From Alcaligenaceae bacterium (GTDB taxonomy: Bacteria; Pseudomonadota; Gammaproteobacteria; Burkholderiales; Burkholderiaceae_B), in assembly GCA_013416435.1 (NCBI GenBank), contig JACCEN010000013.1:124001-188000 (forward strand): a DNA stretch of 64,000 nucleotides, written 5' to 3'. Shown here piece after piece: positions 48,348 through 53,895 of the stretch; positions within the stretch are counted from its first letter, which is position 1; every line of letters begins with the position of its first letter. Position numbers and translations under genes: made by a program. The notes below the pieces were generated by a model. The model searched no databases. It saw nothing but the letters and a program-made list of their open reading frames with translations, and had not been told where the DNA came from.

Positions 48348-49943
48348 ATGCTGAATGTGCTGTTTCCATTCATCGGCGGCATAGGCCTGTTCCTGATCGG
48401 CATGATGCTGCTGTCCAGCGGCCTCGTGGCCTTCGCCGGCGGCGCGCTCCAAAAGGCCTTGATCAGGTTCACCGGCACTCCCTGGAAAGCGTTTGCCTCG
48501 GGCGCCTTCATTACCGCGCTGGCGCAATCCTCCACCGCCACGACGGTAACGCTGATCGGCTTCGTCAGTGCGGGCCTGATCACATTCGCACAAGCCATCG
48601 GCGTGGTAATCGGCGCGAGCCTGGGCAATACCGCGACCGGATGGATCGTCGCAGGCCTGGGATTGAAAATCAATCTGGGTTTCTATACGATGCCTTTCAT
48701 CGGCGCCGGTGCGCTGCTCAAGCTGCTGGTGCCCGGACGATGGGGCGAACTGGGCACCGCAATCGCCGGATTCGGCATCTTGTTTCTGGGGCTCAATACC
48801 ATGCAGGACGGCATGCAGGGGCTGTCGGGCATGCTAGACCTGGCCCGGCTGCCTTCTGGCGGATTCGTGGCCAGCCTGCTGATCATGCTCATCGGCCTCG
48901 TCATGACCGCCATACTCCAATCGTCGACGGCCGCCATCGCCACGACGCTGACCGCGCTGCATGCCGGAGCAATCAACTTCGATCAGGCTGCCGCCGTCGT
49001 GGTGGGCGCGTCCGTCGGCACCACGCTGACCAGCGCACTGGCCACCATAGGCGGAACAATCTACGCCAAACGCACGGCCCTGGCCTACATCCTGTTCAAC
49101 CTTGGGGCCGGTCTCATCGCGGTCCTGCTTCTTCCAGCCTTGCTGTACGCGGCTCAAAGCATAGACCGGCAGTTGGGTTTCTCGGCGGGCGCCCTTGGTC
49201 TGGCCGCTTTTCATTCCCTGTTCATCGGCCTTGGCGTCGTGCTGTTCATGCCGTTCATCACGCAATTTGCCCAAACGATCGCACGCATGCTGCCTGAGCG
49301 CGAGGAGGACCTTGCGCGGCACCTGGACGCTACCTTGCTCAACGTGCCCGAGGTCGCGCTGGGCGCTTCCCATCGCGCCCTGCGGGAAATCACCGGGCGG
49401 GTCTTCCTGGCGTACCAACGGGTCCTCGCCATGAACAGGCCCGCCGGACTGAAACACGAACTGCCGCGCATCCGTATGGCGCTGGAGCAGGCTTTCGATT
49501 TCGTCACGCGCATTCCGGCGGGTGCCGGCGACGACAAGCTGAACGAGCGCAGGGTGGCGCAACTGCATGCCATCGATCACCTGATGCGGCTGTGCAGCCG
49601 CTTGAACGAGCCGGTCGCCGAGCAGGCAGACTTCGGCGATCCGGCGCTCGGCCCCGCCACGAAGCAATGCCGCGACATGCTCGCCCTCGCGGGCGAAGGC
49701 CTGGCGGGCCGCGCCGAGCCCGGGTGGCTGGGTCAGGTCAGCCGCGACGCCCAAGCGCTATCGGAGCGCTCGCGGCAGGTGCGGCACGACATCCTGCAAG
49801 AGGCCGGCCCGGGCCGGCATAGCGCCGCCGAGGCCCTGCTCAAAGCCGACGCGTTCCGCTGGCTCGAGCGCGGTGCCGGCCACGTCTGGCGCATCAGCCA
49901 CTATGCCGCGGCCGATATGGAGCCCGAAGGCGATTCGAAATGA
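48348..49943 (+). CDS. Na/Pi cotransporter family protein
   Basis: 531 residues. Two inverted repeats of the NptA/PNaS type each carry QSSTA (LAQSSTATTVTLIG at ~residue 60; LQSSTAAIATTLTALHAGAI at ~190), with ~9 membrane helices to residue ~320. The rest is a helical cytoplasmic PhoU-like domain. Likely imports or exports phosphate with Na+. Fits with PhoX upstream. Confidence 0.92.
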   Translation: MLNVLFPFIGGIGLFLIGMMLLSSGLVAFAGGALQKALIRFTGTPWKAFASGAFITALAQSSTATTVTLIGFVSAGLITFAQAIGVVIGASLGNTATGWIVAGLGLKINLGFYTMPFIGAGALLKLLVPGRWGELGTAIAGFGILFLGLNTMQDGMQGLSGMLDLARLPSGGFVASLLIMLIGLVMTAILQSSTAAIATTLTALHAGAINFDQAAAVVVGASVGTTLTSALATIGGTIYAKRTALAYILFNLGAGLIAVLLLPALLYAAQSIDRQLGFSAGALGLAAFHSLFIGLGVVLFMPFITQFAQTIARMLPEREEDLARHLDATLLNVPEVALGASHRALREITGRVFLAYQRVLAMNRPAGLKHELPRIRMALEQAFDFVTRIPAGAGDDKLNERRVAQLHAIDHLMRLCSRLNEPVAEQADFGDPALGPATKQCRDMLALAGEGLAGRAEPGWLGQVSRDAQALSERSRQVRHDILQEAGPGRHSAAEALLKADAFRWLERGAGHVWRISHYAAADMEPEGDSK

Positions 49944-49949
49944 CGCCCG

Positions 49950-51263
49950 TTACGCGGAAGCCGGCCGCAGCAAGCCCAGATGGCCTCGCAGGCTGCGGGC
50001 CTCGTACTCCCGGCGAAACAGGCCCCGGGCCTGGAGGATGGGGATGACGGAATCGACGAAATCATCGAGGCTGTCTGGCAATGCGGGCGGCATCAGGTTG
50101 AATCCGTCAGCACCCTCGTTCAGGAACCAGCGCTCCATTTCATCGGCAATTTCATCCGGCGTGCCCACCATGGTGCAATGGCCCCCTCCCGCAGCCAGGC
50201 GTCCCAGCAGCTGCCTGACTGTCGGCTGCTCGGTTTCGATGATGCGCAGGACCGTCGCGTAGCGCCCTTTCGGGCCGGTGAAGTCCTCCAGCGCCGGCAG
50301 GTCGGGAACCGGCGCGTCCAGTTCCCAGCCCATGCAATTTTGCCCGACATAAAGGCCGAGCTGGCGCAAGGCATCTTCAGGCGGAAGCAGCTCATCGAGT
50401 TCGCGCTGCTTGCGCCGGGCTTCGGCGGCGGTGGACGCCACATAGGTCACCAGACCCGGCATGATGGGGACCGGATCCTGCCGGCCCGCTTCCCTGACAC
50501 GGTGCTTGATGTCCCGGTAGTAGGCTTGCGCCGAGGGCAGATCGTAGGCGACGGCGTAGATGGCCTCCGCGTAGCGCGCGGCGAGGTCACGCCCCTGACC
50601 CGAGGCGCCGGCCTGAAACATGACCGGATGTCCCTGCGGCGGCCGCGGCACGGTCAAGGGACCATCCACGAGAAAATGTTCGCCCTGGTGTTGGATCGCA
50701 TGAACCTTGTCCGGATCGGCATAACGGCCCTGACGGTCGCGCAGCAGCGCTTCATCCGCCCAGGAATCCCACAGGCCGAGGACGACATTCACGAACTCCT
50801 CGGCGCGCCGGTAGCGCCAATCGTGATCCGGCATGGCTTCGTATCCATGGTTGCGTGCCTCCGAATCAAACATGGAGGTGACGACATTCCACCCGATCCG
50901 GCCGCCCGAAAGATGATCGAGTGAAGCCAGCATGCGCGCCGCATGAAATGGTGTGTAGAACGTGCTGGAGACCGTGCTGATGAACCCGATACGCTCGGTG
51001 GCACGGCTAAGCGCCGCGATCGTTGTCAATGGCTCCAGGAACCATTTTGGTCCGTCCGCCAGGTTGTCGGCCGATTGACCGTCGGCAAAGAACACCGCGT
51101 CCAGCTTCCCGCGCTCGGCCGTGCGGGCCAATTGTTCGTAGTAGCCGATATCCCCGAGCCTGCCCACAGAGGAATAAGGATGGCGCCAGGCGGCCCGGTG
51201 ATGGCCGCAAGCGAACAGAAACAGATTGATGTGCATGGCGCGCCGGCCCGCAGTGGATTGCAT
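49950..51263 (-). CDS. LLM-class flavin monooxygenase (NtaA/SnaA/DszA type)
   Basis: 437 residues from ATG 51263 with AAGGTGG upstream; an in-frame GTG at 51272 is weaker. Family features: MHINLFLFACGHHRAAWRHP, GKLDAVFFADGQSADN, LEPLTTIAALSRATERIGFISTVSSTFYTPFHAAR, LSGGRIGWNVVTS and VMFQAGASGQGRDLAARYAE. It uses FMNH2 from a separate reductase to oxygenate an organic N- or S-compound. Nine to ten bases after the SDR gene and under the same TPP riboswitch, so a role linked to thiamine or its breakdown products is inferred. Confidence 0.9.
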   Translation of the reverse strand: MQSTAGRRAMHINLFLFACGHHRAAWRHPYSSVGRLGDIGYYEQLARTAERGKLDAVFFADGQSADNLADGPKWFLEPLTTIAALSRATERIGFISTVSSTFYTPFHAARMLASLDHLSGGRIGWNVVTSMFDSEARNHGYEAMPDHDWRYRRAEEFVNVVLGLWDSWADEALLRDRQGRYADPDKVHAIQHQGEHFLVDGPLTVPRPPQGHPVMFQAGASGQGRDLAARYAEAIYAVAYDLPSAQAYYRDIKHRVREAGRQDPVPIMPGLVTYVASTAAEARRKQRELDELLPPEDALRQLGLYVGQNCMGWELDAPVPDLPALEDFTGPKGRYATVLRIIETEQPTVRQLLGRLAAGGGHCTMVGTPDEIADEMERWFLNEGADGFNLMPPALPDSLDDFVDSVIPILQARGLFRREYEARSLRGHLGLLRPASA

Positions 51264-51273
51264 GGTGTCCACC

Positions 51274-52056
51274 TTAGTTCTTGACCAGGCCGCCGTCGAC
51301 GACCAGGTTTTGTCCGGTCACCGAGCGAGACCAGGGGGAAGCGAAAAACAGGGCCGCGTCGGCAAATTCGGCGGGTGTGGTCACGCGGCGCAGCGGCGTG
51401 CCGGCCGCGATCATGTCGAACACCTCTGGTGGCGTGGCGGCGGATGCGTCGGTCGTGCGCAAAAGCCCGCCGGACAGCATGTTCACCGTGATTCCCTTGG
51501 GCCCAAGGTCGTTTGCAAGCGTGCGTGTAAAGGCCAGCAAGGCGGCCTTGGCGGCCGTGTAGTCGTGGTAGGGAACGACGGGATTCTGGAACAAGTTCGT
51601 GCCTATGTTGACGATGCGACCGAAACCGCGCTCCGACATGTCCGGAAGCGCCGCCTGCATTGTATTCAAGGCGCCCTTGACGATGCCTTCGAATTGCTGG
51701 CTCATGGCGCCCCAGGACAGCGTGTCCGCATGAGGGCGGGCGTCGCCGTTGAACGCGAAGGCGGGAAGCGCGTTATTGACCACCGTGGTGACGCCCGAGC
51801 CGAAATGTCGCCGCGCCCGGGCGAACATTTCGTGCACGGCCTGTGCGTCGGCCACGTCGGCCTGCAGGGCGATCGCCCTGTCCGGGGCGGTCTGCGCCAT
51901 TGCCCGCGCCTGGTCTGCACTGTGCAAATAATTGACGACGACGCGAGCGCCCTGTGCAAGAAAGGCGCGCGTCAGATGTTCGCCCAGTCCGCGGCCGCCG
52001 CCGGTGACCAGCACGATCTGTTCATTGATGGGAAGTGCGATGCCGCTGTCGGCCAT
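51274..52056 (-). CDS. SDR oxidoreductase under a TPP riboswitch
   Basis: 260 residues, 3-oxoacyl-ACP-reductase-like SDR. Cofactor motif VTGGGRGLGEHL, VNNALPAFAF (NNAG variant with Ala-Leu), catalytic YxxxK as YTAAK within HDYTAAKAALLAFTR, C-terminal TGQNLVVDGGLV. The usual catalytic Ser position reads NIGTNLFQNP, with Thr in place of Ser. First gene of the operon; a TPP aptamer and a hairpin covering the ribosome-binding site precede it. Substrate unknown. Confidence 0.87.
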   Translation of the reverse strand: MADSGIALPINEQIVLVTGGGRGLGEHLTRAFLAQGARVVVNYLHSADQARAMAQTAPDRAIALQADVADAQAVHEMFARARRHFGSGVTTVVNNALPAFAFNGDARPHADTLSWGAMSQQFEGIVKGALNTMQAALPDMSERGFGRIVNIGTNLFQNPVVPYHDYTAAKAALLAFTRTLANDLGPKGITVNMLSGGLLRTTDASAATPPEVFDMIAAGTPLRRVTTPAEFADAALFFASPWSRSVTGQNLVVDGGLVKN

Positions 52057-52090
52057 GATTCACCTTTTCAAAAAAGCGAAGGTGATTCAT
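52055..52090 (-). promoter_or_regulatory. Hairpin masking the SDR gene ribosome-binding site
   Basis: On the minus strand ATGAATCACCTT and AAGGTGAATCAT pair at 11 of 12 positions, enclosing AAGGTG (the ribosome-binding site) and part of the start codon. It is downstream of the TPP aptamer and is a plausible translational expression platform. Confidence 0.6.
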
Positions 52091-52107
52091 GCGATTGCGG
52101 TGCATGG

Positions 52108-52190
52108 ATGGACATCCCTTCGCCAGTATTAGCTGGAGCAGGTTCGACGGGTTTCATCTCAGCCCCTGAAGGCACCCCGTGTCGTGGGGC
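52108..52190 (-). promoter_or_regulatory. TPP riboswitch upstream of the SDR-LLM operon
   Basis: The minus strand shows the conserved thi-box order: GGGGTGCC, GGGCTGAGA, ACCCG, GAACCTG, TAATACTGGCGAAGGGA. GACA at the 5' end and TGTC at the 3' end can form P1. The match to the THI element is close throughout. Thiamine pyrophosphate should lower expression of the downstream operon. Confidence 0.95.
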
Positions 52191-52234
52191 AAACCATAGC
52201 ACAGAAGCGCCGCCGGCGACAGAGGCTTTGGCGG

Positions 52235-52308
52235 GGGGTCAGACCCCATGCGGGGTCTGACCCCGGGGAAAATTGGCTGGGGTCAGACCCCGCATGGGGT
52301 CTGACCCC
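52235..52308. repeat. Two palindromic repeats between divergent TPP riboswitches
   Basis: Units at 52235-52264 (centre ATGC) and 52279-52308 (centre GCAT), i.e. the same unit in opposite orientations of its asymmetric centre. The right unit ends six bases before a TTGACC -35 element. Confidence 0.95.
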
Positions 52309-52314
52309 TCCCTC

Positions 52315-52343
52315 TTGACCCGGCGCCCAAGGCGCTTTAAGCT
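52315..52343 (+). promoter_or_regulatory. Putative promoter of the riboswitch-controlled transporter
   Basis: TTGACC (52315-52320), 17-base spacer, TAAGCT (52338-52343). The predicted start is close to the 5' end of the TPP aptamer. The -35 is good, the -10 weak. Confidence 0.45.
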
Positions 52344-52353
52344 TTGCGCTTTG

Positions 52354-52445
52354 TTCCTGGGGGAGCCCATTTCGGGCTGAGACTCTGCAGATGGCTGCGG
52401 TAACCCTTTGAACCTGATCCGGGTCATACCGGCGTAGGGATGGAA
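52354..52445 (+). promoter_or_regulatory. TPP riboswitch upstream of the SSS transporter
   Basis: Conserved order GGGGGAGCCC, GGGCTGAGA, TAACCC, GAACCTGATCCGGGTCATACC, GGCGTAGGGATGG. TTCC (52354-52357) and GGAA (52442-52445) form P1. The ATG follows one base after P1, so the aptamer's own conserved GTAGGGA doubles as the ribosome-binding site: TPP binding would directly hide it. Confidence 0.96.
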
Positions 52446-52446
52446 A

Positions 52447-53895
52447 ATGTTCAGCACATCGATCACGATATTGTGCCTGCTGCTGTTTGCGGCGGCCTTC
52501 ACCATTTCAGGCGTTCTGTACGCAAGAAGCGAACGCGGCAGCCTCGAAGACTACGTCATCGCGCGCAATAGCCAGAGCACGACGGCCACCATGCTGACCT
52601 TGCTGGCGACCTCGCTGGGCGGATGGATACTTTTTTCTCCCGCCCAGGCGGCGACATGGGGCGGACTGGCGGCCGTCATCGGCTATGCGCTGGGTGCGGT
52701 TTCGCCCCGTATCCTCATGATCCCGTTGGGCCGTCGGATGCGCGAGCTTATCCCGCAAGGCCATACGCTCACGGAATTCGTCGTGCTGCGCTATGGACGC
52801 GCCATGTATCTGCTGACGCTGCTGATCATGCTCTTCTACATGTTCATCGCGCTCACGGCGGAAATCACGGCAATCGCGAAGCTGGTCACACTGCTGGCGC
52901 CCGTGCCGCTGTGGGTTACCGCCACGATCGTCATGATCTCCACCCTGATCTACACCGCATATGGCGGGCTGCGCGCCTCCATCGTGACCGACAAAGTCCA
53001 GATGGCCGTCATCGTGCCCCTGCTCTTGATCCTGCTGGTGCTGGGCTGGCGCGCCATCGGCGGCATAGAGCCCACGGTCCAGGGCCTGCAGGACCATGCC
53101 CCCCAGCTGCTGAGCCTGACCGACCCCGTGGGCATCAAGGCCGGCTTGACCTTCTTCGTCGCCATCCTGCTGACCGGCCTGTTCCACCAAGGCAATTGGC
53201 AACGGGTCTATTCCGCGCAGGATAACCGCAGCATGCGCCGCGGCTTCCTGCTGGCCGGGGTCCTGGTCGGCCCCATCATCTTCATGATGGGACTCTTCGG
53301 CCTGGCCTTCACCGGCCTCGGGCAAGGCGGCGACAGCTCCATCGCCTTGTTCGCCGTCATCATGCCGCAGGTGCCCGCATGGTTCGCCGTGTCGCTCATC
53401 CCTCTGGGCCTCGCACTGGTCATGAGCACGGCGGACACCGTGATCAGCGCGGTTTCCAGCCTGATCGCCGTCGACGTTCGCCGCATCGCGCCGCATGTCT
53501 CCAGGCCCGCCTTAATGCGTCTTTCGCGCTGGTTGGTTTTCCTGCTGGCGATCCCCGTGATCATTGCCGCGGCGCAGGGATACAGCGTGCTCTATCTGTT
53601 CCTGCTGGCCGACCTGCTATGCTGCGCGGCGGCCTTTCCGGTGTTCTTCGGCCTTTTCAATCCCAGGCACAACGGCCGGATCGCTTTCGCGAGCACGGCC
53701 TGCGGTCTGTTGGCCGGACTGGCGCTCTTTCCCGCGCCGGGCGACCGGCCGGAATATTTGCTGGAGTCTTTCCTGCTTGCCGTCTTCGTTCCGGCCATTG
53801 TCACCCTGGTTTCGCTACGCCTGCTGCGCACGGCGGCCGAGTTCGACTTCGGCCGCCTGAACACGGCAGTGCGCAGCCTGGATGAGCAAAAATAG
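52447..53895 (+). CDS. SSS-family transporter, probably for thiamine or a precursor (ThiV-like)
   Basis: 482 residues, ~13 membrane helices of the sodium:solute symporter family: SLEDYVIARNSQSTTATMLTLLATSLGGWILFSPAQAATWGG, QGHTLTEFVVLRYGRAMYLL, TAYGGLRASIVTDKVQMAVIV and LALVMSTADTVISAVSSLIAVDV (Na+-site region). The start codon directly follows a TPP riboswitch, so import of thiamine, HMP or thiazole is inferred; ThiV is the predicted SSS-type thiamine transporter known from comparative genomics. Confidence 0.85.
   Translation: MFSTSITILCLLLFAAAFTISGVLYARSERGSLEDYVIARNSQSTTATMLTLLATSLGGWILFSPAQAATWGGLAAVIGYALGAVSPRILMIPLGRRMRELIPQGHTLTEFVVLRYGRAMYLLTLLIMLFYMFIALTAEITAIAKLVTLLAPVPLWVTATIVMISTLIYTAYGGLRASIVTDKVQMAVIVPLLLILLVLGWRAIGGIEPTVQGLQDHAPQLLSLTDPVGIKAGLTFFVAILLTGLFHQGNWQRVYSAQDNRSMRRGFLLAGVLVGPIIFMMGLFGLAFTGLGQGGDSSIALFAVIMPQVPAWFAVSLIPLGLALVMSTADTVISAVSSLIAVDVRRIAPHVSRPALMRLSRWLVFLLAIPVIIAAAQGYSVLYLFLLADLLCCAAAFPVFFGLFNPRHNGRIAFASTACGLLAGLALFPAPGDRPEYLLESFLLAVFVPAIVTLVSLRLLRTAAEFDFGRLNTAVRSLDEQK

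Follow-up and report, generated by a model that had tools for sequence, protein, structure and literature searches.

Bacteria recover the pyrimidine half of base-degraded thiamine by a hydrolytic route in which, as outlined in PMC5635689 and PMC10470507, the product is imported by ThiXYZ, deformylated by YlmB and deaminated by TenA to give 4-amino-5-hydroxymethyl-2-methylpyrimidine (HMP). A second described system is ThiV, a transporter of the sodium:solute symporter (SSS) family under a thiamine pyrophosphate (TPP) riboswitch and the likely HMP importer of SAR11 (PMC11452348). The locus described here lies in a 64,000-nucleotide stretch of an Alcaligenaceae bacterium genome (GCA_013416435.1, contig JACCEN010000013.1, positions 124,001 to 188,000; hereafter the window, numbered from its first nucleotide) and comprises two divergent TPP riboswitches, one preceding the genes for a short-chain dehydrogenase/reductase (SDR) and a luciferase-like monooxygenase (LLM) and the other preceding an SSS transporter gene. 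It resembles TenA/YlmB salvage in that the pyrimidine half of thiamine would be recovered as HMP, but a flavin monooxygenase, a reductase and an SSS symporter stand in place of hydrolytic enzymes and ATP-binding cassette (ABC) import, and neither TenA nor YlmB is encoded in the locus; an ABC-transporter-tenA operon behind a TPP riboswitch occurs in one genome of the same family (L121). With ThiV the locus shares the transporter superfamily (at the level of PF00474) and the riboswitch class; however, ThiV is a candidate for direct HMP uptake, whereas the present transporter accompanies two enzymes. On balance, we consider it somewhat probable that the locus is a TPP-controlled salvage system supplying the pyrimidine moiety of thiamine. 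The association of riboswitch, SDR and LLM is real and widely conserved.

Both riboswitches exceeded the gathering threshold of the Rfam model RF00059 (54.3 bits), and at that threshold they were exactly two in the window, lying back to back. The aptamer upstream of the SDR-LLM operon is at 52098-52189 on the minus strand (67 bits, E 5.7e-11, a full-length match to model positions 1-105) and was recovered also by a whole-genome riboswitch search; that upstream of the transporter is at 52349-52457 on the plus strand (75.9 bits, E 3.6e-13). The original prediction, made without database searches, had placed these elements at 52108-52190 and 52354-52445, and the covariance model bears out both sites and their divergent arrangement, with boundaries displaced by up to 12 bases. 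The minus-strand operon contains the SDR gene (51274-52056, 260 aa) followed by that of an LLM-class flavin-dependent monooxygenase of the NtaA/DszA group (49950-51263), whose ATG start at 51263 is preceded by AAGGTGG; the next long open reading frame downstream (48348-49943) lies on the opposite strand, so the operon consists of these two genes. The SSS transporter (482 aa) is encoded on the plus strand at 52447-53895, such that the interval first singled out, 51274-53895, held the SDR and the transporter and left out the LLM gene. The earlier remark that no thiamine-synthesis gene is present is true of the locus but not of the genome (4.4 Mb, 55 contigs), which encodes ThiG and also ThiC, the latter behind a third, weaker TPP riboswitch that scores below the cut-off (47.6 bits; G000:C35:230515-230612, L003). 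Among family genomes with a TPP match, 48 of 131 have none above the Rfam cut-off, and the default RF00059 threshold may miss real TPP riboswitches.

Profile matches upheld the identities proposed for all three proteins. The SDR matched PF13561 and is a member of NF006393 (PRK08642, named 3-oxoacyl-ACP reductase; 432.6 bits against a cut-off of 292 bits), although the annotated 3-oxoacyl-ACP reductase function is unlikely in this context; its YxxxK motif (Y166/K170) is invariant in 16 aligned sequences. The LLM falls in the NtaA/DszA group (TIGR03860, 530.3 bits against 279.7 bits) and its AlphaFold model (pLDDT 76.7) shows the LLM fold, with BdsA (5xkc, TM-score 0.84) and CmoJ (6ask) as the best PDB matches and BdsA, CmoJ and nitrilotriacetate (NTA) monooxygenase, at 35-39% identity, as the nearest structures in the fold search. 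These three enzymes oxidise a carbon next to sulfur or nitrogen. BdsA/DszA, CmoJ (YtnJ) and the monooxygenases of NTA and ethylenediaminetetraacetate are the closest sequences and folds to the LLM, and we know of none among them that is tied to thiamine or to a TPP riboswitch. Assignments as SfnG (92 bits, equivalog cut-off 382.95), alkanesulfonate monooxygenase (63.9 of 518.2 bits) or RutA (55 of 498.3 bits) were rejected. Pusillimonas and other Alcaligenaceae were its closest named neighbours in the LLM tree. The transporter scored 81.2 bits with PF00474 (cut-off 22.8 bits) and fell under the cut-offs for PanF (74 of 328.05 bits) and PutP (43.6 of 515.5 bits), as it did for every NCBIfam model matched, and its assignment is to the SSS superfamily.

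In a sample of 151 genomes of the bacterial family, an LLM ortholog (at least 70% identity, the next listed LLM homologs being at 51% or less) was found in 47, with a TPP riboswitch located 199-948 nt ahead of the LLM gene in all 47 carriers. This riboswitch lies on the strand of the LLM gene in 40 carriers and on the opposite, transporter side in 46, with both, as a divergent pair, in 39. None of 60 other LLM homologs (41-51% identity, among the matches listed in the family sample) had a TPP riboswitch within 4 kb. The SSS transporter was found in 46 family genomes, all of them among the 47 carriers of the LLM, and in one (G092) the SDR, LLM and SSS genes follow one another on a single strand after a single riboswitch.

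Two further arrangements of the SDR were met in the family. In four genomes of one genus (L101, L102, L104, L113), an SDR of 71-73% identity adjoins a GntR-type regulator rather than an LLM, and in one genome (G054; L099:5003-5931) an SDR of 70% identity stands alone after a TPP riboswitch, with no close LLM found.

Beyond the family, 84,980 species genomes were scanned and the best 80 of 508 matches supplied 80 loci; together with one unnamed locus from a phylum sample these gave 81 loci spanning alpha-, beta- and gammaproteobacteria and Actinomycetota. The SDR gene is directly upstream of the LLM gene in 75 of the 81, the remaining six being from Achromobacter, and a same-strand riboswitch lies no more than 250 nt before the SDR gene in 67 of these 75. 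Five of the eight exceptions are Achromobacter loci whose only riboswitch is that of the transporter side; the others are one metagenome-assembled genome (MAG) of Azoarcus without a riboswitch, one contig that begins 20 nt before the SDR gene, and Pseudarthrobacter, in which one TPP riboswitch precedes an operon of thiM, thiE, SDR and LLM genes (L184:2641-6380). A riboswitch is present somewhere in 79 of the 81 loci, and Rfam confirmed it at the gathering score in 11 of the 13 wider loci submitted. Actinobacterial loci retain the pair in 28 of 28 cases and the riboswitch in 26, and the transporter was seen in none of these 28; over all 81 loci it is found in 43, preceded by a riboswitch in 41 by the script's rule and overlapped by one in one more.

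A plasmid copy in Rhodococcus sp. DMU1, at 62% identity, retains SDR, LLM and riboswitch, while two plasmid LLM homologs at 51% identity have neither a riboswitch nor an adjoining SDR. In a tree of 50 LLM sequences, the TPP-linked clade separated from these two outgroup sequences with support of 100/100, and the 30 proteobacterial rows within it formed one group with moderate support (81/93); this topology indicates that the link between riboswitch and pair is old or has moved as a unit. The module is rare outside its hot spots, since in the phylum sample the LLM was detected at E 1e-130 in only 2 of 398 genomes (the source genome and one of another family). A riboswitch-LLM association conserved across two phyla is what emerged for the link first noticed in a single sequence: a chance riboswitch match is ruled out by the RF00059 scores, the whole-genome search and the conserved association with the LLM, and an oddity of one genome by the conserved locus in the family and beyond. 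Two outcomes had been named beforehand as refuting the prediction, sub-threshold covariance scores and a lack of conserved riboswitch-LLM association, and neither was observed. The original prediction of import and oxidative processing of a thiamine-related compound is partly supported, and supported in kind, given the conserved riboswitch-SDR-LLM order and a transporter found in the family sample only in LLM genomes (46 of 46).

That prediction had left the moiety concerned open, and the distribution of ThiC and ThiG points to the pyrimidine side. The search for both proteins covered 75 carriers, of which 25 came from the 47 family genomes and 50 from the 80 named loci. ThiG was found in 71 and ThiC in 49; 23 carriers lacked ThiC alone, one (the Azoarcus MAG) lacked ThiG alone and three lacked both. 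The absences of ThiC alone include Marinomonas algarum, two of three Marinobacter, nine Rhodococcus and two of four Kocuria. Within the family, ThiC is absent from 17 of the 47 genomes with the LLM as against 17 of the 104 others, and after filtering (at least 90% complete and at least 1.5 Mb) from 14 of 43 with the LLM versus 6 of 90 without (Fisher p 2e-4, uncorrected for relatedness). Of the 17 LLM genomes without ThiC, 16 (counted by hand) have no detected riboswitch other than the two of the locus. Loss of ThiC with retention of ThiG makes the pyrimidine the most likely product, and we therefore regard the module as most likely supplying HMP.

Several observations weigh against this reading. 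Only the transporter-side riboswitch was listed in 7 of the 47 family carriers, and no second riboswitch was found in the four such loci that were re-searched (Rfam, E 0.1). Eight loci carry close SDR homologs (64-70% identity where aligned) and no riboswitch, which rules out the SDR by itself as a marker of the module. ThiC is kept in 30 of the 47 family carriers, including the source genome, and in 49 of the 75, so that plain substitution for ThiC does not describe the module. Three Pseudochrobactrum carriers that lack both ThiC and ThiG still keep the pair, making a whole-thiamine role possible there. ThiM, for which neither the source genome nor 43 of the 47 family carriers gave a match, is generally rare in the family (12 of 151). 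TenA occurs in 17 of 47 genomes with the LLM and in 44 of 104 without, a distribution that shows no mutual exclusion and leaves the notion of a TenA replacement unsupported. Finally, the thiazole side could be favoured by two Marinobacter loci in which ThiG follows the pair and by the ThiM-ThiE genes beside it in Pseudarthrobacter.

The exact LLM-aldehyde-SDR chemistry that we propose is tentative, and we give it less than even odds. Inference in this scheme covers TPP repression, import, HMP as the end product, an aldehyde as intermediate, the sequence in which the enzymes act and a flavin reductase. A low level of TPP would lead both riboswitches to permit expression, and the SSS symporter would bring in a compound bearing a 4-amino-2-methylpyrimidine-5-methylene unit. 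Using O2 and reduced flavin mononucleotide from a flavin reductase encoded elsewhere, the LLM would oxidise the 5-methylene carbon beside nitrogen or another substituent; oxidation next to sulfur or nitrogen, as in the LLM group, would at this position give the 5-aldehyde, releasing a 5-formyl pyrimidine from the thiamine-derived compound. The SDR, which has an intact YxxxK motif, would then reduce this aldehyde with NAD(P)H to HMP, and HMP would be phosphorylated by ThiD and joined to the thiazole by ThiE.

The same chemistry could instead act on the vitamin itself, with the LLM splitting imported intact thiamine at the methylene bridge into the 5-formyl pyrimidine and hydroxyethylthiazole, the SDR making HMP and thiamine phosphate being rebuilt, which would bypass a missing thiamine kinase. 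The Pseudarthrobacter operon encodes what rebuilding from both halves needs, and the Pseudochrobactrum carriers without ThiC and ThiG would fit. Rhodococcus ruber ZM07 is described in PMC10269752 as a thiamine auxotroph growing with a thiamine supplement, and another R. ruber (L207, G592) has the pair and ThiG, with no ThiC found. Pseudochrobactrum, the Marinobacter ThiG and the Pseudarthrobacter ThiM-ThiE thus keep intact thiamine among the possible substrates; yet destroying the whole vitamin is costly, and in the 43 family carriers where ThiM was not found the thiazole half would be wasted, and we judge this version unlikely.

Other explanations fare less well than splitting of the vitamin. 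The pair might constitute a second bacterial route to HMP, based on a flavin monooxygenase, that replaces ThiC altogether and draws on a common pyrimidine of the cell or its surroundings instead of being limited to thiamine breakdown products; such a route would explain the loss of ThiC in many carriers across two phyla, but seems quite unlikely to us. Salvage on the thiazole side, in which an oxidised or N-alkylated thiazole (for example of the thiazole acetic acid or aldehyde series) is converted to hydroxyethylthiazole, would accord with the SDR-LLM-ThiG order in the two Marinobacter loci and with the ThiM gene adjoining the pair in Pseudarthrobacter. Thiazole as the product is nevertheless disfavoured by the retention of ThiG in 71 of the 75 carriers, 26 of which had no ThiC found, and by the want of a ThiM match to use the product in the source genome and most family carriers, which renders this explanation distinctly improbable. 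Little more can be said for a role in detoxifying or removing thiamine antimetabolites or damaged thiamine, with no contribution to supply, in which co-regulation would follow from the importance of damage at low TPP levels: LLM enzymes often degrade xenobiotics, and the pair is found on plasmids of Pseudochrobactrum and Rhodococcus, but this account predicts neither the loss of ThiC in carriers nor an importer alongside in 46 of 47 family carriers, and its probability is low. That the riboswitch link is a relic or a convenience, and the pair a general sulfur or nitrogen scavenging system apart from thiamine, is extremely improbable, for although cleavage of C-S and C-N bonds is known in the large family to which the LLM belongs, the identical gene order with a riboswitch recurs in two phyla and none was listed at the 60 other LLM homologs of the family sample.

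The genes found behind other TPP riboswitches of the family agree with a salvage role for the pair. Those sampled (partly read by eye) were thiC, thiM, thiD and ThiXYZ-type ABC operons, one of them with TenA, as well as a CytX-like permease (TIGR02358, 243 bits, under the cut-off of 310), and this thiamine-related company makes an unrelated role unlikely. A second operon type also follows a TPP riboswitch in at least seven family genomes (L094, L095, L096, L097, L098, L123, L125), a minimum count since the operons were met through SDR matches and the riboswitch sample. Genes for LuxE, LuxC, a permease, an NMT1-type binding protein and an SDR occur in this order in all seven, and an ATPase gene was found between them in four (Pfam was applied to six proteins from one operon and two from a second). 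The SDR belongs to the same NCBIfam family as that of the present locus, with 44-47% identity. LuxE and LuxC proteins convert a carboxylate to an aldehyde. Reduction of an aldehyde to an alcohol would thus suit the SDR in both settings, which lends that step independent support, and the operon is possibly a carboxylate-to-alcohol salvage of a thiamine precursor. It thereby resembles the present locus in riboswitch class, in its related SDR and in having a dedicated importer, and differs in that the aldehyde would come from a carboxylate rather than from a monooxygenase and in using ABC instead of SSS transport. A LuxE survey at E 1e-20 found the protein in six different genomes and missed all seven TPP-linked operons; LuxE from these operons scores more weakly (2e-17 and 1.6e-15 in the two tested), and the survey is uninformative on the frequency of the operon.

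As to how the riboswitches might act, the motif AGGGA at 52436-52440 lies within the last part of the plus-strand aptamer and just ahead of the transporter ATG at 52447; TPP binding could therefore directly hide the ribosome site of the transporter. For the SDR-LLM operon, the sequence that separates the minus-strand aptamer from the SDR gene is predicted to fold as a hairpin, a probable expression platform at 52054-52092, that pairs the ribosome-site region AAAAGGTG and reaches the SDR ATG. The predicted stability of this leader is only somewhat above that of shuffled sequences (z -1.65; 14 of 200 shuffles as stable), and that of the plus-strand leader is no greater than shuffled sequences. 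Among relatives, 28 of 30 leaders were foldable and pairing of the ribosome site was mixed. A promoter scan returned none at its threshold, and the single terminator-like site (52328-52346, plus strand) is no more than expected by chance. The arrangement suggests control at the level of translation, with TPP as a putative repressor, for both leaders.

Between the divergent riboswitches, at 52235-52308, a repeat search identified two hairpins of the GGGGTCAGACCCC type. This repeat has 30 exact matches in the window compared with 0 in 100 shuffles, mostly as hairpin pairs, and 26 further copies lie elsewhere in the window. It constitutes a family resembling repetitive extragenic palindromes, and its position between the riboswitches is probably incidental.

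The main text of a TPP regulon survey (PMC3766115) contains neither 'monooxygenase' nor 'oxidoreductase', and no description of an SDR-LLM pair under TPP control was found in a library of open-licence PMC papers (subscription papers, supplements and RegPrecise being outside the scope). The locus probably represents a new, oxidative form of the salvage of thiamine precursors, and would be a new kind rather than a variant if the substrate proves to be other than a thiamine breakdown product. Bacteria without ThiC tend to be classed simply as auxotrophs for HMP or thiamine. ThiC-less carriers of the module were seen in Alcaligenaceae, Marinobacter, Marinomonas, Kocuria and Rhodococcus, and if they obtain HMP from compounds that TenA cannot use, auxotrophy calls for carriers in these groups would be incomplete. 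The finding also offers a function for two proteins whose present annotations go no further than '3-oxoacyl-ACP reductase' and 'LLM class flavin-dependent oxidoreductase', and, if our reading is correct, the traffic of vitamin B1 within communities would have an oxidative branch that the usual gene lists do not count.

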